A stretch of DNA of 64,000 nt, from positions 806,001 through 870,000 of the forward strand of contig NZ_FMZF01000002.1 in NCBI RefSeq assembly GCF_900102745.1, written 5' to 3'. How positions within the stretch are numbered: the first letter of the stretch is position 1; every line of letters begins with the position of its first letter. Under the pieces are notes generated by a model. The model was not told the origin of the DNA. It searched no databases and saw only the letters and a program-made list of their open reading frames with translations. A program made the position numbers and the translations under genes. Below are positions 46,907 through 59,688 of this stretch, piece by piece. The DNA comes from Geodermatophilus telluris. Lineage in GTDB: Bacteria > Actinomycetota > Actinomycetes > Mycobacteriales > Geodermatophilaceae.

Positions 46907-48922
46907 TCACCTCGCCGGCCGGCTCAGGTCGTAGACGGTGACGCCGTCGATCGTCTGCGCGGTGTAGTGCTCCGCCACCCACGCCACGATCTCCGCCGAC
47001 GCCGAGCTGCCGCCGTCGCCGGCCATCCCCAGCCCGCCGCCGACGAACCAGTGGACCCGCCCGTCGGCGACGTACTGCTGGAACTGCTCGAGGGTGGGCG
47101 AGGGGTCACTGCCGTTGAACCCGCCGACCGCCATCACCGGCAGCCCGGTGGCCAGCTGGTAGCCGGCGGCGTTGTTGGACCCGACCGCGGCGGCCGCCCA
47201 GGTGTACCCGTCGGCGTCCTCGCTGAGCGCGGCCACCAGCTCCTCGCCGACGTCGGAGGCGTCGAGCAACCCGCCCGGCCCGCCGCCGGCGCCGCCTCGG
47301 GGGCCGACCGGGACCGCGGTGTTGCCCGGCGCGGTCCCCGGCGCCACCCCGCCCGGTGCGGCACCGCCGGCAGCGGCCGGCGGGCGGCCGAGTGCGGCAC
47401 CGCCGGGGCCCGCGAAGCCGGCGCCGGCGACGGCCGGACCGGCGCTCGGGATGGAGCCGGTGTGCGGGGTGGCGGCGGTCTGCACGGCGTAGGCGGCCGG
47501 TCCGGCGACCCCGCCCAGCAGCCCGGCGGCCAGCACCGCGGCGGCAACGGCGCGGCCCAGCCGGTCGACGACGACCAGCCCGAGCGCCGCGACCAGCCCC
47601 ACGGCCAGGACGGCCCAGCGCAGCCACGGCAGGAAGTCCGCCGAGCGGCCCAGCAGCACCCACGCCCACAGCGCGGTGCCGGCCAGCACGAGCGCCAGCA
47701 CCAGCCGCGCCCCGGCCCGGTCCCGGCGCCGCCAGAGCAGCGCGCCGCCGATGGCGACCAGGGCGGCGACCGCGGGGGCGAGGGCCACCGTGTAGTAGGC
47801 GTGGAAGATGCCGGCCATCAGGCTGAAGGTCAGGCCGGTGACGGCGAGCCAGGTGCCCCAGGTGAGCAGCGCGGCCCGGCGCGGGTCGGTGCGGGGTGCC
47901 CGGCCGACGGTGACCAGCCCGGCGGCCAGCAGCGCCAGCGCGGCCGGCAGCAGCCACCCGACCTGCCCGCCGACCTCGGCGCCGAACAGCCGCAGCAGCC
48001 CGGTCTCGCCCCAGCCGCCACCCGGCGCGCCGCCGACGCTGCCGGTCTCCTCGCCGGTCAGCCGGCCGAGGCCGTTGTAGCCCCAGATCAGCTCCCACAC
48101 GGAGTTCGTCTGCGAGCCCCCGACGTACGGGCGCGACGCCGCGGGCACCAGCTCGACGACGGCGACCCACCAGCCGCCGGCCACGACCGTCCCCGCCCCG
48201 GCGCCGAGCAGCTGCAGCACGCGGCGGCGCAGCGTTGCCGGAGCGGCCACCAGCCACACCAGCGCGAAGCCGGGGACGACGAGCACCGCCTGCAGCGTCT
48301 TGGTGAGGAACGCGAACCCGAGCAGCACCCCCACGGCGACCAGCCCGCGGGTGGAGGCCCGCTCCAGCGACCGGGTGAGCACGTACGCGGCCGCGGTCAT
48401 CAGCAGCACGAGCAGCGCGTCGGGGTTGTCGAAGCGGAACATGAGCGCGGCCACCGGGGTCAGCGCCAGGACCGCCCCGGCGAGCAGCCCCGCGCCCGGG
48501 CCGGCCACCCGGCGCACGGCCAGGTACAGCAGCCCCACGGTGGCCACGCCCATGAGCGCCTGCGGCACCAGCAGCGACCACGGGCTCAGGCCGAACAGCC
48601 GCACCGACAGCGCCATCACCCACAGCGACGCGGGGGGCTTGTCCACGGTGATCGAGTTGGCCGCGTCGGAGGAGCCGTAGAAGAACGCCTCCCAGCTCTG
48701 CGAGCCGGCCTGCGCGGCCGCGGCGTAGAAGGCGTTGGCCCAGCCCGACGCCGAGAGGTCCCACAGGTACAGCGCGCCGGTGGCGGCCAGCAGGCCGAGC
48801 AGCGCGGGCCGCACCCAGCGCGGGTCGGTGGGGTGCCGGCGCAGCAGCCGGGCGGCCCGGCCGGCGCGCGCGGGTGCCGGGGGAGCGGCGGGCGCCGGGG
48901 GTGGCGGCACGGTGGCGGTCAC
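46907..48922 (-). CDS. GT39-family (ArnT/PMT-like) membrane glycosyltransferase
   Basis: 671 residues with about eleven to thirteen hydrophobic segments. Polyprenyl-phosphate-sugar transferases of this class use an outer loop acid; here SDAANSITVDKPPASLWV carries the typical Asp and DKPP motif. A long Gly/Ala/Pro-rich outer segment (about 510-560) leads to a soluble C-terminal domain with SNNAAGYQLATGLPVMAVGG and FVGGGLGMAGDG. Likely moves a sugar from a lipid carrier to an envelope acceptor. GTG 48922 overlaps the GT2-GtrA gene, which probably makes the carrier-linked sugar. Confidence 0.88.
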   Translation of the reverse strand: MTATVPPPPAPAAPPAPARAGRAARLLRRHPTDPRWVRPALLGLLAATGALYLWDLSASGWANAFYAAAAQAGSQSWEAFFYGSSDAANSITVDKPPASLWVMALSVRLFGLSPWSLLVPQALMGVATVGLLYLAVRRVAGPGAGLLAGAVLALTPVAALMFRFDNPDALLVLLMTAAAYVLTRSLERASTRGLVAVGVLLGFAFLTKTLQAVLVVPGFALVWLVAAPATLRRRVLQLLGAGAGTVVAGGWWVAVVELVPAASRPYVGGSQTNSVWELIWGYNGLGRLTGEETGSVGGAPGGGWGETGLLRLFGAEVGGQVGWLLPAALALLAAGLVTVGRAPRTDPRRAALLTWGTWLAVTGLTFSLMAGIFHAYYTVALAPAVAALVAIGGALLWRRRDRAGARLVLALVLAGTALWAWVLLGRSADFLPWLRWAVLAVGLVAALGLVVVDRLGRAVAAAVLAAGLLGGVAGPAAYAVQTAATPHTGSIPSAGPAVAGAGFAGPGGAALGRPPAAAGGAAPGGVAPGTAPGNTAVPVGPRGGAGGGPGGLLDASDVGEELVAALSEDADGYTWAAAAVGSNNAAGYQLATGLPVMAVGGFNGSDPSPTLEQFQQYVADGRVHWFVGGGLGMAGDGGSSASAEIVAWVAEHYTAQTIDGVTVYDLSRPAR

Positions 48923-50211
48923 CGGGCGGTCTCCGTCTCGGGGAGGGCGGCCGTGGCGGGCGCGGCCACGGGGGTGCGGGGGGTCCGGGCGCCGCGGAAG
49001 ACCCAGTCGCGCAGCAGCACGAAGCGCAGCAGCGTGGCCGCGGCGTTGGCGGCGAGCAGCACGGCGAGCTCGACGGCGCGGGCCGGCGAGGGGGCGGCCA
49101 GGTGCAGCAGGCCCAGGGAACCGCTGGTCAGGGCGAGGGCGAGGGCGAACACGACGAGCCCCTGCAGCTGGTGGCGGCCGGCCCCGGGCCCGCCGCGGAT
49201 GCCGAAGGTGACCCGCCGGTTGGCCGCGGTGTTGGCCACCGCGGTCACCAGCAGGGCGACGAGGTTGGCCGGCTGGGCGGCCAGGACGCCGCGCAGCAGC
49301 AGGAACAGCAGCAGGTAGGCCGCCGTCGACAGCACGCCGACCGCGGCGAAGCGCACCAGCTGGCCGGCCGGCGACGACGAGTCGCCGGGCAGCCGGTCGG
49401 GCAGCGGCCCGCGGCCGATCGAGTCGCGCAGCTGCGCCAGCGGCAGCCGCCCGGTGGCCAGCGCGCGCAGCACCCGGGCGATGCCGGCCAGGTCCGCGCG
49501 CGCCGTCGCCACGACGTCGACCCGGCTGTCGGGGTCGTCGACCCAGTCGACGGGCACCTCGTGGATCCGCAACCCGGCCCGCTCGGCGAGCACCAGCAGC
49601 TCGGTGTCGAAGAACCAGCCGGTGTCCTCGACCAGCGGCAGCAGCCGCACCGCGACGTCGGCCCGGATGGCCTTGAAGCCGCACTGGGCGTCCGACAGCG
49701 AGGTGGCCAGCGTGCGGCGCAGGACCAGGTTGTAGCAGCGGGAGACGACCTCGCGCCGGAGGCCGCGGACCACCCGCGACGAGCGCGCCAGCCGGGTGCC
49801 GATGGCCAGGTCGGAGTGGCCGCTGACCAGCGGGGCGACCAGCGGCAGCAGGGCGTCGAGGTCGGTGGAGAGGTCGACGTCGGTGTAGACGAGGACCGGC
49901 GCGTCCGACCGCAGCCAGGCCGTGCGCAGCGCGCCGCCGCGGCCGGGCTCCGGGATCTGCAGCACCTCGACCCCGGGCAGCTCCGCGGCGACCCGGTGCG
50001 CCACCTCCGGGGTGCGGTCGGTGCTGCCGTTCTCCGCGACGGTGATGCGGAACGACCAGGGCAGGGACTCGGTCAGGTGGGCGTGCAGGCGGCGCAGGCA
50101 CGGCTCGAGGTCGGTCTCCTCGTCGTGCACCGGGACGACGACGTCGAGCACGGGCCGTCCACGGCCGGCGGTACCGGCGCGGTCGTGCGCGCCGAGCAGG
50201 AGCGGGGGCAT
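48919..50211 (-). CDS. GT2-GtrA fusion glycosyltransferase
   Basis: 430 residues. The N-terminal GT2 domain is of dolichol-phosphate-mannose-synthase type (about 18-250; LDVVVPVHDEETDLEPCL, acidic DVDLSTD, DAQCGFKAIRADVA) and is fused to a four-helix GtrA domain (about 285-410; LVRFAAVGVLSTAAYLLLFL). Such fusions make and flip polyprenyl-phosphate-linked sugars. ATG 50211. Coupled by 4-bp overlap to the GT39 gene, giving a donor-synthesis/transfer pair for envelope glycosylation. Divergent from the quinone-oxidoreductase-like gene. Confidence 0.9.
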   Translation of the reverse strand: MPPLLLGAHDRAGTAGRGRPVLDVVVPVHDEETDLEPCLRRLHAHLTESLPWSFRITVAENGSTDRTPEVAHRVAAELPGVEVLQIPEPGRGGALRTAWLRSDAPVLVYTDVDLSTDLDALLPLVAPLVSGHSDLAIGTRLARSSRVVRGLRREVVSRCYNLVLRRTLATSLSDAQCGFKAIRADVAVRLLPLVEDTGWFFDTELLVLAERAGLRIHEVPVDWVDDPDSRVDVVATARADLAGIARVLRALATGRLPLAQLRDSIGRGPLPDRLPGDSSSPAGQLVRFAAVGVLSTAAYLLLFLLLRGVLAAQPANLVALLVTAVANTAANRRVTFGIRGGPGAGRHQLQGLVVFALALALTSGSLGLLHLAAPSPARAVELAVLLAANAAATLLRFVLLRDWVFRGARTPRTPVAAPATAALPETETAR

Positions 50212-50297
50212 GACGCCGACGGTCGCGCCCGGGGCTGGGCCGGCCTGGTGCGCGCGCTGGGGATCGGCTGTGACCGGCGGGGCGCCACCGGTGGCCG

Positions 50298-50310
50298 TAG
50301 GTTCGGGGCC
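50298..50310 (+). promoter_or_regulatory. Leaderless -10 box of the quinone-oxidoreductase-like gene
   Basis: TAGGTT (50298-50303), 7 nt, GTG at 50311; no ribosome site. Confidence 0.5.
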
Positions 50311-51246
50311 GTGCGTGCCGTGGGAGTGGTCCGGTTCGGCGGGCCCGAGGCCCTCACCGTCGTCGACGTGCCGGACGAGCCCCTCGGGCCCGGGCAGGTG
50401 CGGCTGCGGGTGCGCGCGACGGCGGTCAGCCCCACCGACACCCACCTGCGCGAGGGCGCCTACGCCGGGCGGGACCCGGTCACGACCCCGCCGTGGGTGC
50501 CCGGCATGGACGCCGCCGGCGAGGTGGTCGAGGTGGGCGAGGACGTCGACCGGGTGCGGGTCGGCGACGCGGTCATGGCGGTCGTCGTCCCCACCGGCGC
50601 GCACGGCGGCTACCGCGAGGACCTCGTGCTGCCGCAGGGCTCGGTGGCCCGGGTGCCGGCGGGGACGGACGCCGTCGCCGCGTGCACGCTGCCGATGAAC
50701 GGGCTCACCGCCCGGCTGGCGCTCGACCACCTGGCGCTGCCCCCCGGGTCGGTGCTCGCGGTGACCGGCGCGGCGGGCGCCTTCGGCGGCTACGTCGTCC
50801 AGCTGGCGAAGGCCGACGGGCACACCGTCGTCGCCGACGCGTCCGAGGCCGACGAGCAGCTGGTCCGCGACCTCGGCGCCGACGTCGTCGTCCGGCGGGG
50901 GGACGACGTGGCCGAGCGGATCCGCGCCGAGTTCCCCGGCGGCGTCGACGGGCTGGCCGACGGGTCGGTGCAGGACGCGCTCGTGCTGCCCGCGGTCCGC
51001 GACGGCGGGAAGGTGGCCACCGTGCGCGGCTACCGCGGCGACGGGTCGGGCCGGGTCGAGGTGTTCCCGACCCGGGTGCGCGACTACGCCGAGAACGGCG
51101 CCGCACTGGACCGGCTGCGCGAGCAGGTGGAGTCCGGCGCGCTGACCCTGCGGGTGGCCCGCACCTTCGCGCCGGAGGAGGCGCCCGAGGCGCACCGCGC
51201 GCTGGCCCGCGGCGGCGTGCGCGGGCGGCTGGTGATCACCTTCTGA
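50311..51246 (+). CDS. NADPH:quinone oxidoreductase-like MDR protein
   Basis: 311-residue medium-chain dehydrogenase/reductase without structural zinc Cys. The N-terminal GroES-like lobe (VRFGGPEALTVVDVPDEPLG, AVSPTDTHLREG, PGMDAAGEVVEVG) and the nucleotide domain (GSVLAVTGAAGAFGGYVVQL, ADASEADEQLV, LGADVVVRRGDD) are both present. NADPH-dependent reduction of quinones or enones is the family reaction. GTG 50311, leaderless. The EthD gene follows on the same strand after 100 bp. Confidence 0.88.
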   Translation: MRAVGVVRFGGPEALTVVDVPDEPLGPGQVRLRVRATAVSPTDTHLREGAYAGRDPVTTPPWVPGMDAAGEVVEVGEDVDRVRVGDAVMAVVVPTGAHGGYREDLVLPQGSVARVPAGTDAVAACTLPMNGLTARLALDHLALPPGSVLAVTGAAGAFGGYVVQLAKADGHTVVADASEADEQLVRDLGADVVVRRGDDVAERIRAEFPGGVDGLADGSVQDALVLPAVRDGGKVATVRGYRGDGSGRVEVFPTRVRDYAENGAALDRLREQVESGALTLRVARTFAPEEAPEAHRALARGGVRGRLVITF

Positions 51247-53304: not shown

Positions 53305-56031
53305 GTGTTCCCGACCCCCAGGGCAGCCGACCGCGCCGTCGGCAGCTCCCCGACGCCCCCGGGCCGCAGCCGCGCCGTCGTCGGCGTGGCCGGTGCGCTC
53401 GCCGCGGTCGGCCTCCTGGGCCAGGCCTCCCTCGCCGGCACGGTCGCCGGCACCGCGTCGTACTTCGCCGTCGTGGCGCTGGCCGTGGCGCTCGCCGTCT
53501 CCGGCGCCCGGCGCGGGGGCGCGCGGCTGGTCGCCCTCGGCGTCGCGCTGTCCGCGGCCGGCGACGTCGTCTGGCAGGCGCACCACGCGCTGACCGGCGC
53601 CGGCACCGCCACCTGCCCGGCCGACGTCCTGTGGCTGGCCTCCTACGGCGTGCTCGCCGCCGGCCTCTGGCGGCTCGCGCACGGCGAGCTCACCAGCCGG
53701 GAGCAGCAGCTCGCCGGCTGGATCGACGCGCTGGTCGTCCTGGTGGCCGGCCTGCTGGTCGCCTGGCAGCTCTCCATCTCGGCGACCGTGCACGACGGCT
53801 CGCTGTCGGTGCTCGACCGGGTGGTGCAGGCGCTCTACCCGGCGGCCGACGCCGCGCTCATCGCGGTCGTGGTCCGCCTGGTGGCCACCCGGCGCCGCGG
53901 TGACCGGGCGCCGCTGGTCGCCACGGCGGCGTGCGCCTGCTGGCTGGTCTCCGACCTCGCCCTCCTCCTGCAGTCGGGCAACGACGGCTTCGGCTCGTGG
54001 GGCGACTCCGGCTGGCTGCTCGGCTCCCTGCTCCTGGCCGCGGTCACCTGGGTCCGCCCGGCCGCACCGGCCCCGGCCGCGCCCGGTGCCGACGACGGGC
54101 GCTCGGGCCTGGGCCGCCTCGCCGTCTGCCTCGGCGCGCTCGTGGTGCCGCCCAGCGTGGACGCCGTCTCCCACCTCGACGGCCACTCCGCCGGGCTCGC
54201 GGTCTTCGTCAGCACGGTGCTGCTGGCGGCGCTGGTCTTCGCGCGGGCGGCGCTGCTGCTGCGCTCCGAGGCCGCCGCCCGCTGCCTGGTCCGCTCCCGG
54301 GAGCAGTACGCGGTCAAGCTCGCCGCCTGGTCGGCCGACGCGGTGGTGGTCGTCGACCGGGACCGCCGCTTCCTCAGCGACCCCGCCCCGCTCGCCGCCC
54401 TGCTCGGCGTCGAGCCGTCGGAGCTGGCCACCGTGCACGACGCCGTCCGCGTCGCCGGCGCCGACCCCGGGCGCGCCGACGCCTTCTTCCAGCAGGTGCT
54501 GGCCAATCGCGGCACCGTCGTCGACGGTGAGCTGTCCACCCGCCACCGCGGCGAGGACCGCTCGCTGGGCATCCGGATGGTCGACCTCACCGACGACGGC
54601 GACGTCCGCGGCATCGTCCTGCACGTCACCGACGTGACCAGCCGGCGCAGCGCCGAGCGGATGCTGGTGCACACCAGCCTGCACGACGGGCTGACCGGCC
54701 TGGCCAACCGCACGCTGTTCACCGACCGCGTCGGCCAGGCGCTGCTGCGCACCGTGCGCGGCGGCGGCTCGGCCGCGGTGGTGACCGTGGACCTCGACGG
54801 CTTCAAGGCGGTCAACGACACCCTCGGCCACGACGCCGGCGACTTCCTGCTCTTCGAGGTGGCCGGGCGGCTGCGCGCCGCGGTGCGCGCCGACGACACC
54901 GTCGCCCGGCTCGGCGGCGACGAGTTCGCCGTGCTCGTCGAGCAGCCCGGCGACGGTGAGGCACAGGCCCAGGCCACCGCCGAGCGGCTGCTCGAGGTGC
55001 TGACCCGGCCGATCCAGGTCGACGGCACGGCGGTCACGGTGACCGCCGCGGTGGGCATCGCCGTCGGCCGCGGCGACGTCCCCGCCGGCTCGCTGATCGC
55101 CGACGCCGACCTCGCGCTGCAGGCCGCCCGGGCCGGCGGCCGGGGCCGGGTGCAGCGCTACGACCCCGGGATGCGCGCGGCCGCCGAGGCCGCCCGCGAG
55201 CTGGAGCAGGAGCTGCGCGGTGCGCTGGAGCGCGGCGAGTTCCGGCTCGTCTACCAGCCGGTGGTCACCCTGGCCGACCGGCGGGTGACCGGCTTCGAGG
55301 CGCTGCTGCGCTGGGCGTCGCCGCGGCTGGGCCCGGTGGGCCCCGACCGGTTCGTGCCCGCCGCCGAGGCGGCCGGCTTGATCGGCGAGATCGGCGCGTG
55401 GGTGCTGCGCGAGGCGTGCGCCACCGCCGCCGCGTGGCGGCAGGCCCACCCCGGCGCCGGCGACCTGACGATGGCGGTCAACCTGTCGGCCGCGCAGCTG
55501 ACGTCGGCCGGCCTGGTCGAGCAGATCTCGGTCGCGCTCGCCGAGAGCGGGCTGCCCGCCGGCGCGCTGGTGCTGGAGGTGACCGAGACCGCGCTGGTCC
55601 GCGACCCCGAGCACGCGGCCGCCTCGCTGGCGGCGCTGCGGGCGCTGGGCGTGCGGCTCGCCCTCGACGACTTCGGCACCGGCTACTCCTCGCTGGCCCA
55701 CCTGCGGCAGTTCACCGTCGACGTGCTCAAGATCGACCGCTCGTTCGTCAGCACGATGGCCGAGGGCGAGCCGATGCCGGCGATCGTGCGCGGCACCATC
55801 GACCTGGGCCGCACGCTGGGCCTGGAGGTGCTGGCCGAGGGCATCGAGCACGAGCACCAGGCGCGGCTGCTGGCCGAGGGGCGGTGCGACTCGGCGCAGG
55901 GCTACCTCTTCGCCCGGCCGCTGGAGCGCGCCGACGCCGAGGCCGTGCTGCTGGAACAGGCCGCCTGCCCGGACGCCGCGGTCCCGTCGCCGCGCGCCGC
56001 GGGCCCTGTCCCGGCCGTGACCCGGCCGTGA
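53305..56031 (+). CDS. Bifunctional-type GGDEF/EAL c-di-GMP protein with MASE-like membrane sensor
   Basis: 908 residues. About eight hydrophobic helices (20-320) are followed by a PAS-like domain (about 335-450), a GGDEF domain and an EAL domain. The cyclase site LGGDEFAVLVEQ (GGDEF at 537-541) is intact and has an inhibitory RxxD (RADD) five residues upstream. The EAL domain starts with TGFEALLRW (EAL at 665) and keeps VNLSAAQL, LEVTETAL, LDDFGTGYSSL, LKIDRSF, AEGIE and AQGYLF. Both making and breaking of c-di-GMP are therefore possible. GTG 53305; possible FliA-type promoter. Ends 33 bp before an Arg-rich micro-ORF. Confidence 0.92.
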   Translation: MFPTPRAADRAVGSSPTPPGRSRAVVGVAGALAAVGLLGQASLAGTVAGTASYFAVVALAVALAVSGARRGGARLVALGVALSAAGDVVWQAHHALTGAGTATCPADVLWLASYGVLAAGLWRLAHGELTSREQQLAGWIDALVVLVAGLLVAWQLSISATVHDGSLSVLDRVVQALYPAADAALIAVVVRLVATRRRGDRAPLVATAACACWLVSDLALLLQSGNDGFGSWGDSGWLLGSLLLAAVTWVRPAAPAPAAPGADDGRSGLGRLAVCLGALVVPPSVDAVSHLDGHSAGLAVFVSTVLLAALVFARAALLLRSEAAARCLVRSREQYAVKLAAWSADAVVVVDRDRRFLSDPAPLAALLGVEPSELATVHDAVRVAGADPGRADAFFQQVLANRGTVVDGELSTRHRGEDRSLGIRMVDLTDDGDVRGIVLHVTDVTSRRSAERMLVHTSLHDGLTGLANRTLFTDRVGQALLRTVRGGGSAAVVTVDLDGFKAVNDTLGHDAGDFLLFEVAGRLRAAVRADDTVARLGGDEFAVLVEQPGDGEAQAQATAERLLEVLTRPIQVDGTAVTVTAAVGIAVGRGDVPAGSLIADADLALQAARAGGRGRVQRYDPGMRAAAEAARELEQELRGALERGEFRLVYQPVVTLADRRVTGFEALLRWASPRLGPVGPDRFVPAAEAAGLIGEIGAWVLREACATAAAWRQAHPGAGDLTMAVNLSAAQLTSAGLVEQISVALAESGLPAGALVLEVTETALVRDPEHAAASLAALRALGVRLALDDFGTGYSSLAHLRQFTVDVLKIDRSFVSTMAEGEPMPAIVRGTIDLGRTLGLEVLAEGIEHEHQARLLAEGRCDSAQGYLFARPLERADAEAVLLEQAACPDAAVPSPRAAGPVPAVTRP

Positions 56032-56064
56032 ACCGACCTGACCGGGAGGAGGGAGGTGGTCCTC

Positions 56065-56112
56065 ATGCTGCGTCGTCTTCGTCGACTCGCCCGCGGCCGG
56101 CTGTGGCGCTGA
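56065..56112 (+). CDS. 15-residue arginine-rich micro-ORF (possible leader peptide)
   Basis: ATG 56065 lies 8 nt after GGGAGGAGGGAGG (56044-56056), an exceptionally strong ribosome site. The peptide is MLRRLRRLARGRLWR, seven Arg in fifteen residues, an amphipathic cationic helix. The first Arg and Leu codons are CGT, CGT, CTT, CGT, CGA, which are rare for this GC-rich DNA. Two competing hairpins follow before the M50 protease gene. It may be an attenuation leader, a membrane-active peptide or a substrate of that protease. Only sequence supports it. Confidence 0.5.
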   Translation: MLRRLRRLARGRLWR

Positions 56113-56123
56113 GCGCCCGTCCC

Positions 56124-56196
56124 GGCGCCGCGAGGCGCTGAGCCCGTGACGAGGCGCCGCGAGCACCCCGGTCCGCCCGGGGACTCGCGGCGCCTC
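56124..56196 (+). promoter_or_regulatory. Two mutually exclusive hairpins between the micro-ORF and the M50 gene
   Basis: The 11-mer GGCGCCGCGAG occurs at 56124-56134 and again at 56153-56163. Both can pair with CTCGCGGCGCC (56184-56194), so only one stem can form at a time. The proximal stem extends to a perfect 13 bp (56151-56163 with 56184-56196) plus an inner 6-bp CCCCGG/CCGGGG stem. The first copy begins 12 nt after the micro-ORF stop, within the shadow of a ribosome stopped there. Attenuator-like layout; may simply be a terminator. Confidence 0.5.
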
Positions 56197-56234
56197 CGCG
56201 TCCCGTCCCGAACCGTCCCGTCCCTGGGGGAGCC

Positions 56235-57440
56235 GTGCACCTGGCCGACGACGTCCTCTGGCGTGCCAGCAAGCGGGGTCTGCTGGTCTCGGTGCCCGAC
56301 GGGGACGCCGCCCTGCTCGAGCACCCGCGTGCCACCCGGCTGCCGGACCTCCTGGCCGACGGGCCGGACCGCGCCACCCTGGCCGCGCGCCTCGGCGGGC
56401 CGGACGGCGAGCGGCTGGTCGCCGAGCTCGTGGACGCCGGCGTCCTGACCGACCCCACCGACGTCGCGGACCGCCCCGCCGGGGACCCGCGCCGCGACCG
56501 CCGCGTGGTGCTCACCCGCTCCGGGCTCGAGGTCGCCGGCATCGAGCGGCCGGCCCGGTGGATCGACCGCCATCTCCTGCCGCTGCTGTGCTCGCTGCCC
56601 GGGCGGTTCCTGTTGGCCGCGGTCGTGGTCGCAGGCCTCGTCTCGATGACCACGGGACGGCCTGCCGGGCCCGCGGTCACCGACCGTCCCGTGGTCGACG
56701 CGCTGGTGGGCTTCGTCGTCGGCCTCCTGCTCGCCGCGCTGCACGAGCTGGCCCACGCCGTCGCGCTGGTCCACTTCGGCCGCCGTCCGCGCCGGGCGGG
56801 TTTCGGCTTCTACTGGGGCGGGATCTCGTTCTTCGTCGACTCCACCGAGGCGCTGACGCTGCCCCGGCGGGCGCGGGTCGTGCAGGCACTCGCCGGGCTG
56901 ATGGTGGACGTGGTGACCACCAGCCTGCTCGCGATCACCGCGCAGGTGAGCTCCTCGGTGCTGGTCGCGGGGGTGGCCTGGCGGCTCGTCGTCCTGGGGC
57001 TGCTCGACCTGGTCACCAACCTGCTGCCGGTCCTCGAGGTCGACGGGCACTGGGCGCTGGCCGACCACCTCGACGAGCCCGACCTCGCCCCCCGGGCACG
57101 GGCCGCCCTCGCCGACGCGCTGCGCGGCACCTCCCGCCCGGGGACGCCCCGCTGGATGGCGGTCTACGGCGCGGTGACCCTGGTCGGCGGGCTGGCCCTG
57201 CTCGCCGGCGGGGCGCTGGTGTGGTGGTCGGCGTTCGACGACCTGCTGGGCAGCCTGTTCGCCGGGGACCTGGCCGAGGTCGTCGTCGGGGTCCTGCTGG
57301 TCACCCCGGTGGCGCTCGGCGCGCTGGTCAGCTCCCTCGGGCTGCTGCTGCAGGGGCTCGTCCCGGACGACGCCGGCCGTGAGGCGGCTGGTGCGCCGGC
57401 AGCGCACACCGTCACCGGCGCCCCCGCTCGCGACGCCTAG
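56235..57440 (+). CDS. M50-family membrane metalloprotease with N-terminal wHTH-like domain
   Basis: 401 residues. The N-terminal region (about 1-75; LADDVLWRASKRGLLVSVPD, DAGVLTD) looks like the PqqD/winged-helix-type domain found ahead of peptide-handling M50 proteins (weak match). The membrane part has about seven helices and the zinc site HELAH at 170-174, with the second motif NLLPVLEVDGHW bringing Asp270. Family members cut membrane or small peptides. GTG 56235 with GGGGGAG. Preceded by the Arg-rich micro-ORF and alternative hairpins. Its last codons overlap a half-copy of the palindromic repeat found at 57994-58054. Confidence 0.84.
   Translation: MHLADDVLWRASKRGLLVSVPDGDAALLEHPRATRLPDLLADGPDRATLAARLGGPDGERLVAELVDAGVLTDPTDVADRPAGDPRRDRRVVLTRSGLEVAGIERPARWIDRHLLPLLCSLPGRFLLAAVVVAGLVSMTTGRPAGPAVTDRPVVDALVGFVVGLLLAALHELAHAVALVHFGRRPRRAGFGFYWGGISFFVDSTEALTLPRRARVVQALAGLMVDVVTTSLLAITAQVSSSVLVAGVAWRLVVLGLLDLVTNLLPVLEVDGHWALADHLDEPDLAPRARAALADALRGTSRPGTPRWMAVYGAVTLVGGLALLAGGALVWWSAFDDLLGSLFAGDLAEVVVGVLLVTPVALGALVSSLGLLLQGLVPDDAGREAAGAPAAHTVTGAPARDA
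57391..57415 (+). repeat. Half-copy of the palindromic repeat inside the M50 gene end
   Basis: GTGCGCCGGCAGCGCACACC GTCAC (57391-57415) matches the right arm of the repeat at 58030-58054 at 24 of 25 bases. It encodes the APAAHTVT segment near the protein C-terminus. Confidence 0.6.
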
Positions 57441-57877: not shown

Positions 57878-57993
57878 CGGTCCCTCCGGGGGTCGGTGGG
57901 AGTGGTACGGCGGTGAAGTTAGGGAGCACCGGGGCGCCGCGACAGGGCCCGAAGCCCCCGCGTGCGCAACCCGCCTCCAGCTCCGCGGGGGCC

Positions 57994-58054
57994 GACGGTG
58001 TGCGCTGACGGCGCGTTCCGGTCGAGGAAGTGCGCCGTCAGCGCACACCGTCAC
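57994..58054. repeat. Palindromic repeat, copy 1
   Basis: Perfect 21-bp arms GACGGTGTGCGCTGACGGCGC (57994-58014) and its complement (58032-58052); inner TTCC/GGAA pairing closes the loop. Related to the element at 59523-59575. Too long and too conserved to be just a terminator; looks like a dispersed palindromic element. The 80 bp after it hold only a small GGCGAGG/CCTCGCC hairpin near the protease stop. Confidence 0.75.
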
Positions 58055-58136
58055 TCGGCCGCCACCGGCGAGGATGTGCCGGCCGACCTCGCCGACCCCC
58101 TGCCGTCGTCACCGGGTGCGGACGAGCGTGACGACG

Positions 58137-59366: not shown

Positions 59367-59522
59367 GCCCGTGCCGGCGCGGCCATCCCCTCGTCTTGCC
59401 ACCAGGTCGGCACGACCGCGCCGCCAGCCACACGGTTCCGGTGCCACCCTGCTCACCCGGCGGCCGGACGAGGCTCCCCCGGAGCAGGTGCAGCGGGCCG
59501 CAGCTCGTGCGCGACGGCCGGT

Positions 59523-59575
59523 GGTGTGCGCTGATGGCGCACTCCCTCGACCGGAGTGCGCGCTGGGCGCGCACC
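59523..59575. repeat. Palindromic repeat, copy 2 (diverged)
   Basis: GGTGTGCGCTGATGGCGCAC then TCCCTCGACCGGAGTGCGCG to GCGCGCACC: imperfect arms around the same TCGACC/GGTCGA core as copy 1. With copy 1 it brackets the serine protease gene. The rest of the gap 59211-59734 holds the protease promoter and nothing else recognised. Confidence 0.6.
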
Positions 59576-59688
59576 GTCACCCGGGACGACCGAGGTGCCC
59601 GGCCGGCGGTCGCCCGGTCGGGTGGGATCGGCCGGAGCTGTCCACAGATCGGCTGACGGGGCGCCCACGCAGCGTCGCCGCCGACCTA

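Follow-up and report, generated by a model that had tools for sequence, protein, structure and literature searches.

An Arg-rich micro-ORF ahead of an M50 membrane protease in Geodermatophilus telluris looks like part of an undescribed peptide-and-protease system

Described site-2 protease systems and the locus in G. telluris

In daptide clusters, the leader of the precursor peptide is removed by an intramembrane site-2 protease that carries a fused RRE. The daptide paper reports 2.3 short ORFs per cluster in its first set, 184 short ORFs near 80 such RRE/site-2 proteases, and precursors that carry the leader motif ELExMEAP and an invariant C-terminal Thr (PMC10036551). Site-2 proteases also mature short linear peptides in the Eep/RseP pheromone pathway of Firmicutes, where the precursors are signal peptides that are processed by a general site-2 protease encoded elsewhere (PMC10202637). 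The YydH/LiaK epipeptide proteases (NF058609) are likewise M50 proteases of a peptide cassette. Epipeptide precursors are longer than the peptides described here.

The locus analyzed in this study lies in a window of 64,000 nucleotides of the Geodermatophilus telluris genome ("the window" denotes this whole stretch of DNA), where a micro-ORF is located between a GGDEF/EAL gene (53305-56031, by Pfam), whose stop is 33 nt away, and an M50 protease gene (56235-57440). An earlier note on the sequence had offered two interpretations, namely a ribosome-mediated attenuator of the protease gene or a peptide that serves as substrate of the protease, and the analyses below favored the second and not the first. 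The features of the locus are as follows.

56044-56056, + strand: Shine-Dalgarno sequence of the micro-ORF, GGGAGGAGGGAGG, with the strongest predicted 16S pairing; unique sequence
56065-56112, + strand: micro-ORF encoding MLRRLRRLARGRLWR, with ATG at 56065 and TGA at 56110-56112
56105-56162, + strand: 29-nt imperfect tandem duplication (units 56105-56133 and 56134-56162), 79% identical
56151-56196, + strand: GC-rich hairpin without a U run, with a perfect 13-bp stem, between the micro-ORF and the protease gene
56235-57440, + strand: GTG-initiated gene for an M50 membrane metalloprotease of the site-2 type (401 aa), matching NF041824 and NF058609
56235-56525, + strand: putative RRE of the PqqD-like winged-helix type at the N terminus of the protease, by a weak profile match
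56742-56756, + strand: HELAH zinc-binding motif (residues 170-174), invariant in four aligned proteins
57018-57047, + strand: NLLPVLEVDG (residues 262-271), of which N262, P265, D270 and G271 are invariant in four aligned proteins

The identification of the gene following the micro-ORF as an M50 membrane protease was upheld by the HELAH motif, by NLLPVLEVDG, which we take to be the third-ligand motif of M50 proteases, and by the match to NF041824 (daptide_HExxH). Hydropathy peaks flank the HExxH and N..P....DG motifs. The NF041824 score of the window protein was 118.2 bits, below the curated cut-off of 300, and those of the proteases from the three other genomes carrying the micro-ORF were 110.1, 106.5 and 113 bits, all below 300 as well; the cut-off was exceeded in 13 of 394 genomes of the class. 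The NF058609 score was 39.8 bits (28 to 41.5 bits over the four carrier proteins) against a cut-off of 225. A profile of the four proteins aligned with seven daptide-type proteases over 283 columns (E 4.9e-22). As regards the PqqD-like N-terminus that had been proposed, no such domain was found by Pfam at E values up to 10, and support came from a weak profile match (E 1.1e-4, probability 57%) to the corresponding N-terminal part of seven daptide-type proteases; the domain is a putative RRE of the PqqD-like winged-helix type. No solved structure matched the whole protease up to E 1, and the N-domain returned only designed helical proteins and weak matches.

A palindromic element, roughly 60 nt long and present at four places in the genome, occurs in the window at 57984-58055 and 59510-59580. 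A 25-nt half copy of it at 57391-57415 falls within the 3'-terminal part of the M50 gene, in the coding sequence of a protein tail that the proteins of relatives do not share.

Daptide clusters resemble the locus in their protease, MpaP/DapP, which is of the same HMM family (NF041824) and has an N-terminal domain before the M50 domain, in the several short ORFs per locus, and in their occurrence in Actinomycetota (PMC10036551, PMC12338566). They differ from it, apart from the low NF041824 score, in the peptides, which are 14-15 residues long here, with ELExMEAP in none of the nine known copies and a C-terminal Thr in one of the nine. In a scan of 18 neighbouring or M50 proteins from four loci, which covered part of the flanking genes, none of the daptide partners MpaB, MpaC, MpaD, MpaM or the ABC transporter was found, nor any oxidative decarboxylase, aminotransferase or methyltransferase, nor an exporter, receptor or modifying enzyme common to the scanned neighbours. 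The window protein encoded at 48874-51246 contains an alcohol-dehydrogenase-like domain of the zinc type. The locus differs from the YydH/LiaK systems in protease scores far under the cut-off and in having no radical SAM epimerase among the scanned neighbours, and from the Eep/RseP systems in that the peptide genes are followed by a protease gene of their own and encode charged peptides with no signal sequence.

Micro-ORF copies and protease relatives

The micro-ORF was confirmed to have 15 codons, seven of them for Arg (CGT, CGT, CGT, CGA, CGC, CGG and CGC). The predicted pairing of its Shine-Dalgarno sequence with the 16S 3' tail (-28.6 kcal/mol) ranked first among 1615 ATG/GTG sites on the + strand, in a ranking that used an assumed 16S tail sequence, and the description of this site as the strongest in the window holds within that scope. 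GGGAGGAGGGAGG occurs at one place on the + strand of the window and at none on the - strand.

The searches gave six full-length members of the protease family, namely the window protein and five relatives with 76, 58, 58, 56 and 54% identity to it, and four of the six have the micro-ORF ahead of the M50 gene. Blastococcus haudaquaticus DSM 44270 has a single copy, MLRRLRRLARARSWR (L056:5972), preceded by what we take, by eye, to be an acetate kinase and phosphoketolase pair, unlike the neighbour in the window. Actinomycetospora endophytica TBRC 5722 (L065) has three tandem copies, VLRPIRRLARNWRG, MLRRLRRLARNWRC and MLRRLRRLARSWKI, and Actinomycetospora sp. TBRC 11914 (L066) has four, MLRRLRRLARNWRG, VLRRLRRLARTWRI, MLRRLRRLARNWRS and VLRRLRRLARNWRT. 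The tandem copies are spaced 86-95 nt apart, each with its own strong predicted Shine-Dalgarno sequence. The first copy in A. endophytica (L065:5673), VLRPIRRLARNWRG, is degenerate and is possibly decaying or functionally diverged.

The nine copies in four genomes thus encode peptides of 14-15 residues, at one to four copies per locus. The block LRRLRRLAR is present in eight of the nine, and residues from position 11 onward vary, with tails of the form x-W-R/K-x in Actinomycetospora and RLWR or RSWR in the two Geodermatophilaceae; the tails also differ between tandem copies. Short ORFs beside a protease, with a constant N-terminal part, a variable C-terminal part and multiple copies, make up the layout of RiPP-like precursors. 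The LRRLRRLAR motif was absent from the literature searched, and the sole relevant paper on M50 proteases, RiPPs and short peptides in that literature was the daptide paper (PMC10036551).

Changes among the copies are mostly synonymous. Codons 2-10 show 14 distinct departures from the consensus, of which 11 leave the amino acid unchanged, against an expectation of 36% (P = 0.0014); with the degenerate copy set aside, ten remain and all are synonymous (P = 3e-5). Between the window and Blastococcus, a 27-nt identical run extends across the micro-ORF start; the longest identical run in the M50 gene is 23 nt, with 78.6% identity overall and 58.7% of 235 fourfold sites identical. With these comparisons as its basis, we conclude that the micro-ORF is a conserved peptide gene, and the conservation in relatives that the earlier note had asked to be checked was found, as was linkage to the M50 gene in four of the six full-length members.

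A chance ORF beside an ordinary terminator between two genes would draw on the abundance of short ORFs, since the window contains 528 candidates of 9-30 aa on both strands, and on the whole interval between micro-ORF and protease, which in the window folds no better than its shuffles. This explanation is extremely improbable, and for the micro-ORF itself it is refuted by conservation, given that the nine copies, spread over four genomes, show synonymous change, that the Shine-Dalgarno sequence ranks first and that the occurrence is locus-specific. A degenerate pattern with up to three mismatches matched three, four and one places in the genomes of A. endophytica, Actinomycetospora sp. TBRC 11914 and Blastococcus, respectively, all at the M50 locus, and the reversed control pattern gave one match in total over these genomes. 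In a blind control that accepted any ORF of 9-30 aa with a predicted Shine-Dalgarno pairing of -15 kcal/mol or lower within 1450 nt upstream, the micro-ORFs alone, some with alternative starts, were recovered in all four carrier loci. The same criterion, which cannot see the longer daptide precursors, returned one unrelated 9-mer from 26 anchored daptide-type loci (the best 30 of those from 101 matching genomes, less four that could not be anchored). Its Shine-Dalgarno threshold was passed by five of the 528 window candidates, and the values from the blind locus control imply that two of these five are starts of the micro-ORF itself.

Searches across wider genome sets returned few further candidates. 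The strict pattern (up to three mismatches) matched three of 397 genomes of the order, G. telluris itself, Blastococcus and L063, the last of which was rejected because its match is missing a start codon and is embedded in other sequence. The degenerate pattern (up to two mismatches) matched three of 394 genomes of the class, G. telluris itself and two (L084 and L086) whose matches were read as chance in long GC-rich frames. A DNA search with the leader in 26 genomes of the genus gave, besides the window itself, short GC-rich matches only. A plasmid or phage origin was rejected, as no M50 match was found in the plasmid collection and none was confirmed in viral contigs; the micro-ORF pattern was also not found in viral contigs.

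The protease has a similarly sparse distribution. A close relative was present in two of 112 genomes of the family, that of the window and Blastococcus. When a single genome was scanned for each of 84,980 species, with two short peptide patterns that can miss distant relatives, three relatives were confirmed, those of Blastococcus and the two Actinomycetospora carriers. Four of 18 Actinomycetospora genomes had a match, the two carriers and two others (G452 and G447), and the same four were the only matches in 390 genomes of the family to which Actinomycetospora belongs. No micro-ORF was found upstream of the G452 and G447 proteases, also on a blind re-check. The G447 protease (L082, 5305-7176, - strand) carries a fused FHA domain (PF00498, E 2.2e-12), and the gene adjoining the G452 relative (L081, 5889-6518, - strand) presumably encodes an FHA protein, as judged by eye. 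Since two of the six full-length members have no micro-ORF and one of these is FHA-fused, the protease can do without this peptide. In a tree with loci having a HExxH match as outgroup, the members formed three pairs of unresolved order (window and Blastococcus; the two Actinomycetospora carriers; G452 and G447), so that two separate gains or a single loss would account for the distribution of the micro-ORF. One of the four matching Actinomycetospora genomes (G434) also contains a second, N-terminally truncated M50 fragment (L083, G434:C13:346783-347283), which has no micro-ORF.

The FHA domain in relatives that have no micro-ORF suggests another control input to the same protease, and peptides of such small size could act without being cut; both points would suit peptides that regulate the protease as inhibitor, activator or small subunit, its true substrate being elsewhere. 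We regard this as unlikely, since the tails vary between tandem copies as products do and a subunit would be expected to be uniform.

The net Arg/Lys content of 5-7 in 14-15 residues is also what leaderless, cationic, membrane-active peptides of a bacteriocin-like kind could show, for which the M50 protein would be an immunity, processing or receptor protein. The helical moment of the seven Actinomycetospora copies was reached by 17 to 136 of 2000 shuffles, and there is a precedent in EntK1, a bacteriocin whose receptor is the site-2 protease RseP (PMC9672952). Such a role is nevertheless improbable here, given the ordinary helical moment of the window and Blastococcus copies (640 and 749 of 2000 shuffles) and the missing exporter among the scanned neighbours. 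To our knowledge, all known leaderless bacteriocins are longer than these peptides, which also counts against it.

Hairpin, codon choice and the attenuator interpretation

A GC-rich hairpin is located between the last micro-ORF and the protease gene in all four loci. Its perfect stem is 13 bp in the window and 11, 15 and 12 bp in the three other loci, lengths matched by 1, 1, 0 and 0 of 300 mononucleotide shuffles, respectively. The stem begins 38 and 44 nt after the stop of the last micro-ORF in the two Geodermatophilaceae and 8 and 15 nt after it in Actinomycetospora, and the distance from its end to the start of the protease gene is 38, 36, 39 and 59 nt in the four loci. Folding of the whole interval was at least as stable in 3 of 300 shuffles for Blastococcus, 1 of 300 for A. 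endophytica, 18 of 300 for Actinomycetospora sp. TBRC 11914 (less clear) and 46 of 300 for the window, which is not better than the shuffles; with dinucleotide shuffles, the window region gave z = -0.11, 89 of 200 shuffles being at least as stable. Within 55900-56400, there was no site of a U-tailed terminator and no match to a known RNA element in Rfam up to E 1. CGTCCCGTCCC occurs twice, 15 nt apart, in the C-rich segment that separates the hairpin from the start of the protease gene (56199-56209 and 56214-56224).

The attenuator interpretation had been built on the repeat around this hairpin. The 11-mer GGCGCCGCGAG is present at 56124-56134 and 56153-56163, its sole two places on the + strand of the window; the repeat distance of 29 nt was correct, and the first copy begins 11 nt after the micro-ORF stop instead of the 12 nt given before. 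Both copies lie inside the 29-nt imperfect tandem duplication, which creates them. It was also correct that both can pair with one downstream arm (56151-56171 with 56176-56196, 86%; 56124-56143 with 56175-56194, 80%). The upstream copy of the stem arm in the window is 11 nt long, matched by 2 of 1000 shuffles; in the three other loci the longest copies are 6, 4 and 6 nt, as expected by chance (241, 915 and 301 of 1000 shuffles). The mutually exclusive stems are therefore a property of the window, missing in the three other carrier loci; the check on whether both stems are kept in relatives had a negative outcome, and competing stems were rejected as a conserved mechanism.

The earlier note had also pointed to rare Arg codons in the micro-ORF. 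Among the 256 Arg codons of seven window genes, CGT and CGA have a share of 3.5% each; in the micro-ORF they together make up four of the seven (P = 0.0007). CTT accounts for 0.3% of Leu codons in the seven genes. CGT is present at codon 3 in nine of the nine copies and at codon 4 in eight, and CTT at codon 5 in six. Host-like recoding made the micro-ORF starts more folded than the native ones: with codon weights set in part by hand, 0 of 500 recodings were as open as the native start for three of the nine copies (window, Blastococcus and one from Actinomycetospora), and 19, 38, 46, 73, 84 and 259 of 500 for the other six. Because recoding folds the start more, the rare CGT and CTT codons agree better with a start kept open for strong translation than with ribosome stalling, and their lowering of start-site structure is in line with strong initiation. 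The conservation of codons 3-5 (CGT CGT CTT) beyond what the peptide requires leaves room for a possible role at the RNA level.

A regulatory leader, in which translation of the micro-ORF, or arginine supply, would decide on termination at the hairpin ahead of the protease gene, agrees with several of these results: the hairpin follows the last micro-ORF in four of four loci, the Actinomycetospora stems at 8 and 15 nt past the stop are within the cover of a terminating ribosome, codons 3-5 are conserved at the base level, and the window carries the two competing stems. With the competing arm existing in the window alone, the attenuator has lost its main support, and a regulatory leader of any such kind is doubtful. 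The gap of 38 and 44 nt between stop and stem in the two Geodermatophilaceae, the three to four tandem peptide genes with a Shine-Dalgarno sequence each, which is not the layout of an attenuator, and rare codons that open the start all count against it. The stem without a following U run counts against it weakly, because U-less 3' ends exist in actinobacteria. In Streptomyces clavuligerus, such hairpins show higher read-through than U-rich ones, and the class (HS-U-lack) is associated with partial read-through (PMC8269248). The hairpin described here is GC-rich, U-less and from an actinobacterium like the HS-U-lack 3' ends, and it differs from them in being known from sequence, its function being assigned from that. 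As its position is kept in all four loci, it is likely to be a partial terminator or a processing site.

A candidate peptide-and-protease cassette

The synonymous-biased conservation of the peptide, its position ahead of the M50 gene in four of the six members and the tandem copies in two of them support a peptide/protease pair. Since this pairing, with up to four peptide genes, recurs in three related soil bacteria, the locus appears to be a peptide-and-protease system of an undescribed kind and not a gene switch.

In the reading that we favor, to which we give about an even chance of being right, the locus is a self-contained cassette of short-peptide genes and a dedicated RRE-type membrane protease, with a hairpin that limits protease expression. 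Its order would be one to four tandem genes for Arg-rich peptides of 14-15 residues, the GC-rich hairpin and an MpaP-like protease whose RRE-like domain, at the N terminus, precedes a membrane-embedded site-2 (M50) catalytic domain. We infer from this arrangement that the peptide genes are designed for strong translation and that the invariant LRRLRRLAR may be a recognition segment bound by the N-domain of the protease, which would cleave the peptide so that the variable C-terminal tail is released or exported. The freed tail could act as a signal or as a bioactive peptide of very small size. By ending part of the transcripts or by serving as a site of their processing, the hairpin would let the peptide outnumber the protease. 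A precursor of 14 residues is short for a leader plus a core, which counts against the cassette reading.

More tentatively, and with a probability well below even, the locus could be a minimal two-gene system in which the RRE-fused site-2 protease is the sole enzyme and releases peptides of four or five residues with diversified sequences (NWRG, TWRI, SWKI and RLWR, for example) as intercellular signals or bioactives. The precursor would then be barely longer than the sequence that an RRE usually recognizes, and the tails, which are specific to the strain, would amount to a peptide code.

Genes this short are omitted by ordinary gene finders, and mining for daptide-type systems targets longer precursors with known partner enzymes. 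If the favored reading is correct, few known peptide cassettes would be as small as these tandem 14-codon genes with their single RRE-type intramembrane protease, and the locus would provide an approachable test case for how RRE-type intramembrane proteases choose their substrates. It would also mean that an MpaP-like protease need not be accompanied by the daptide enzymes to function.
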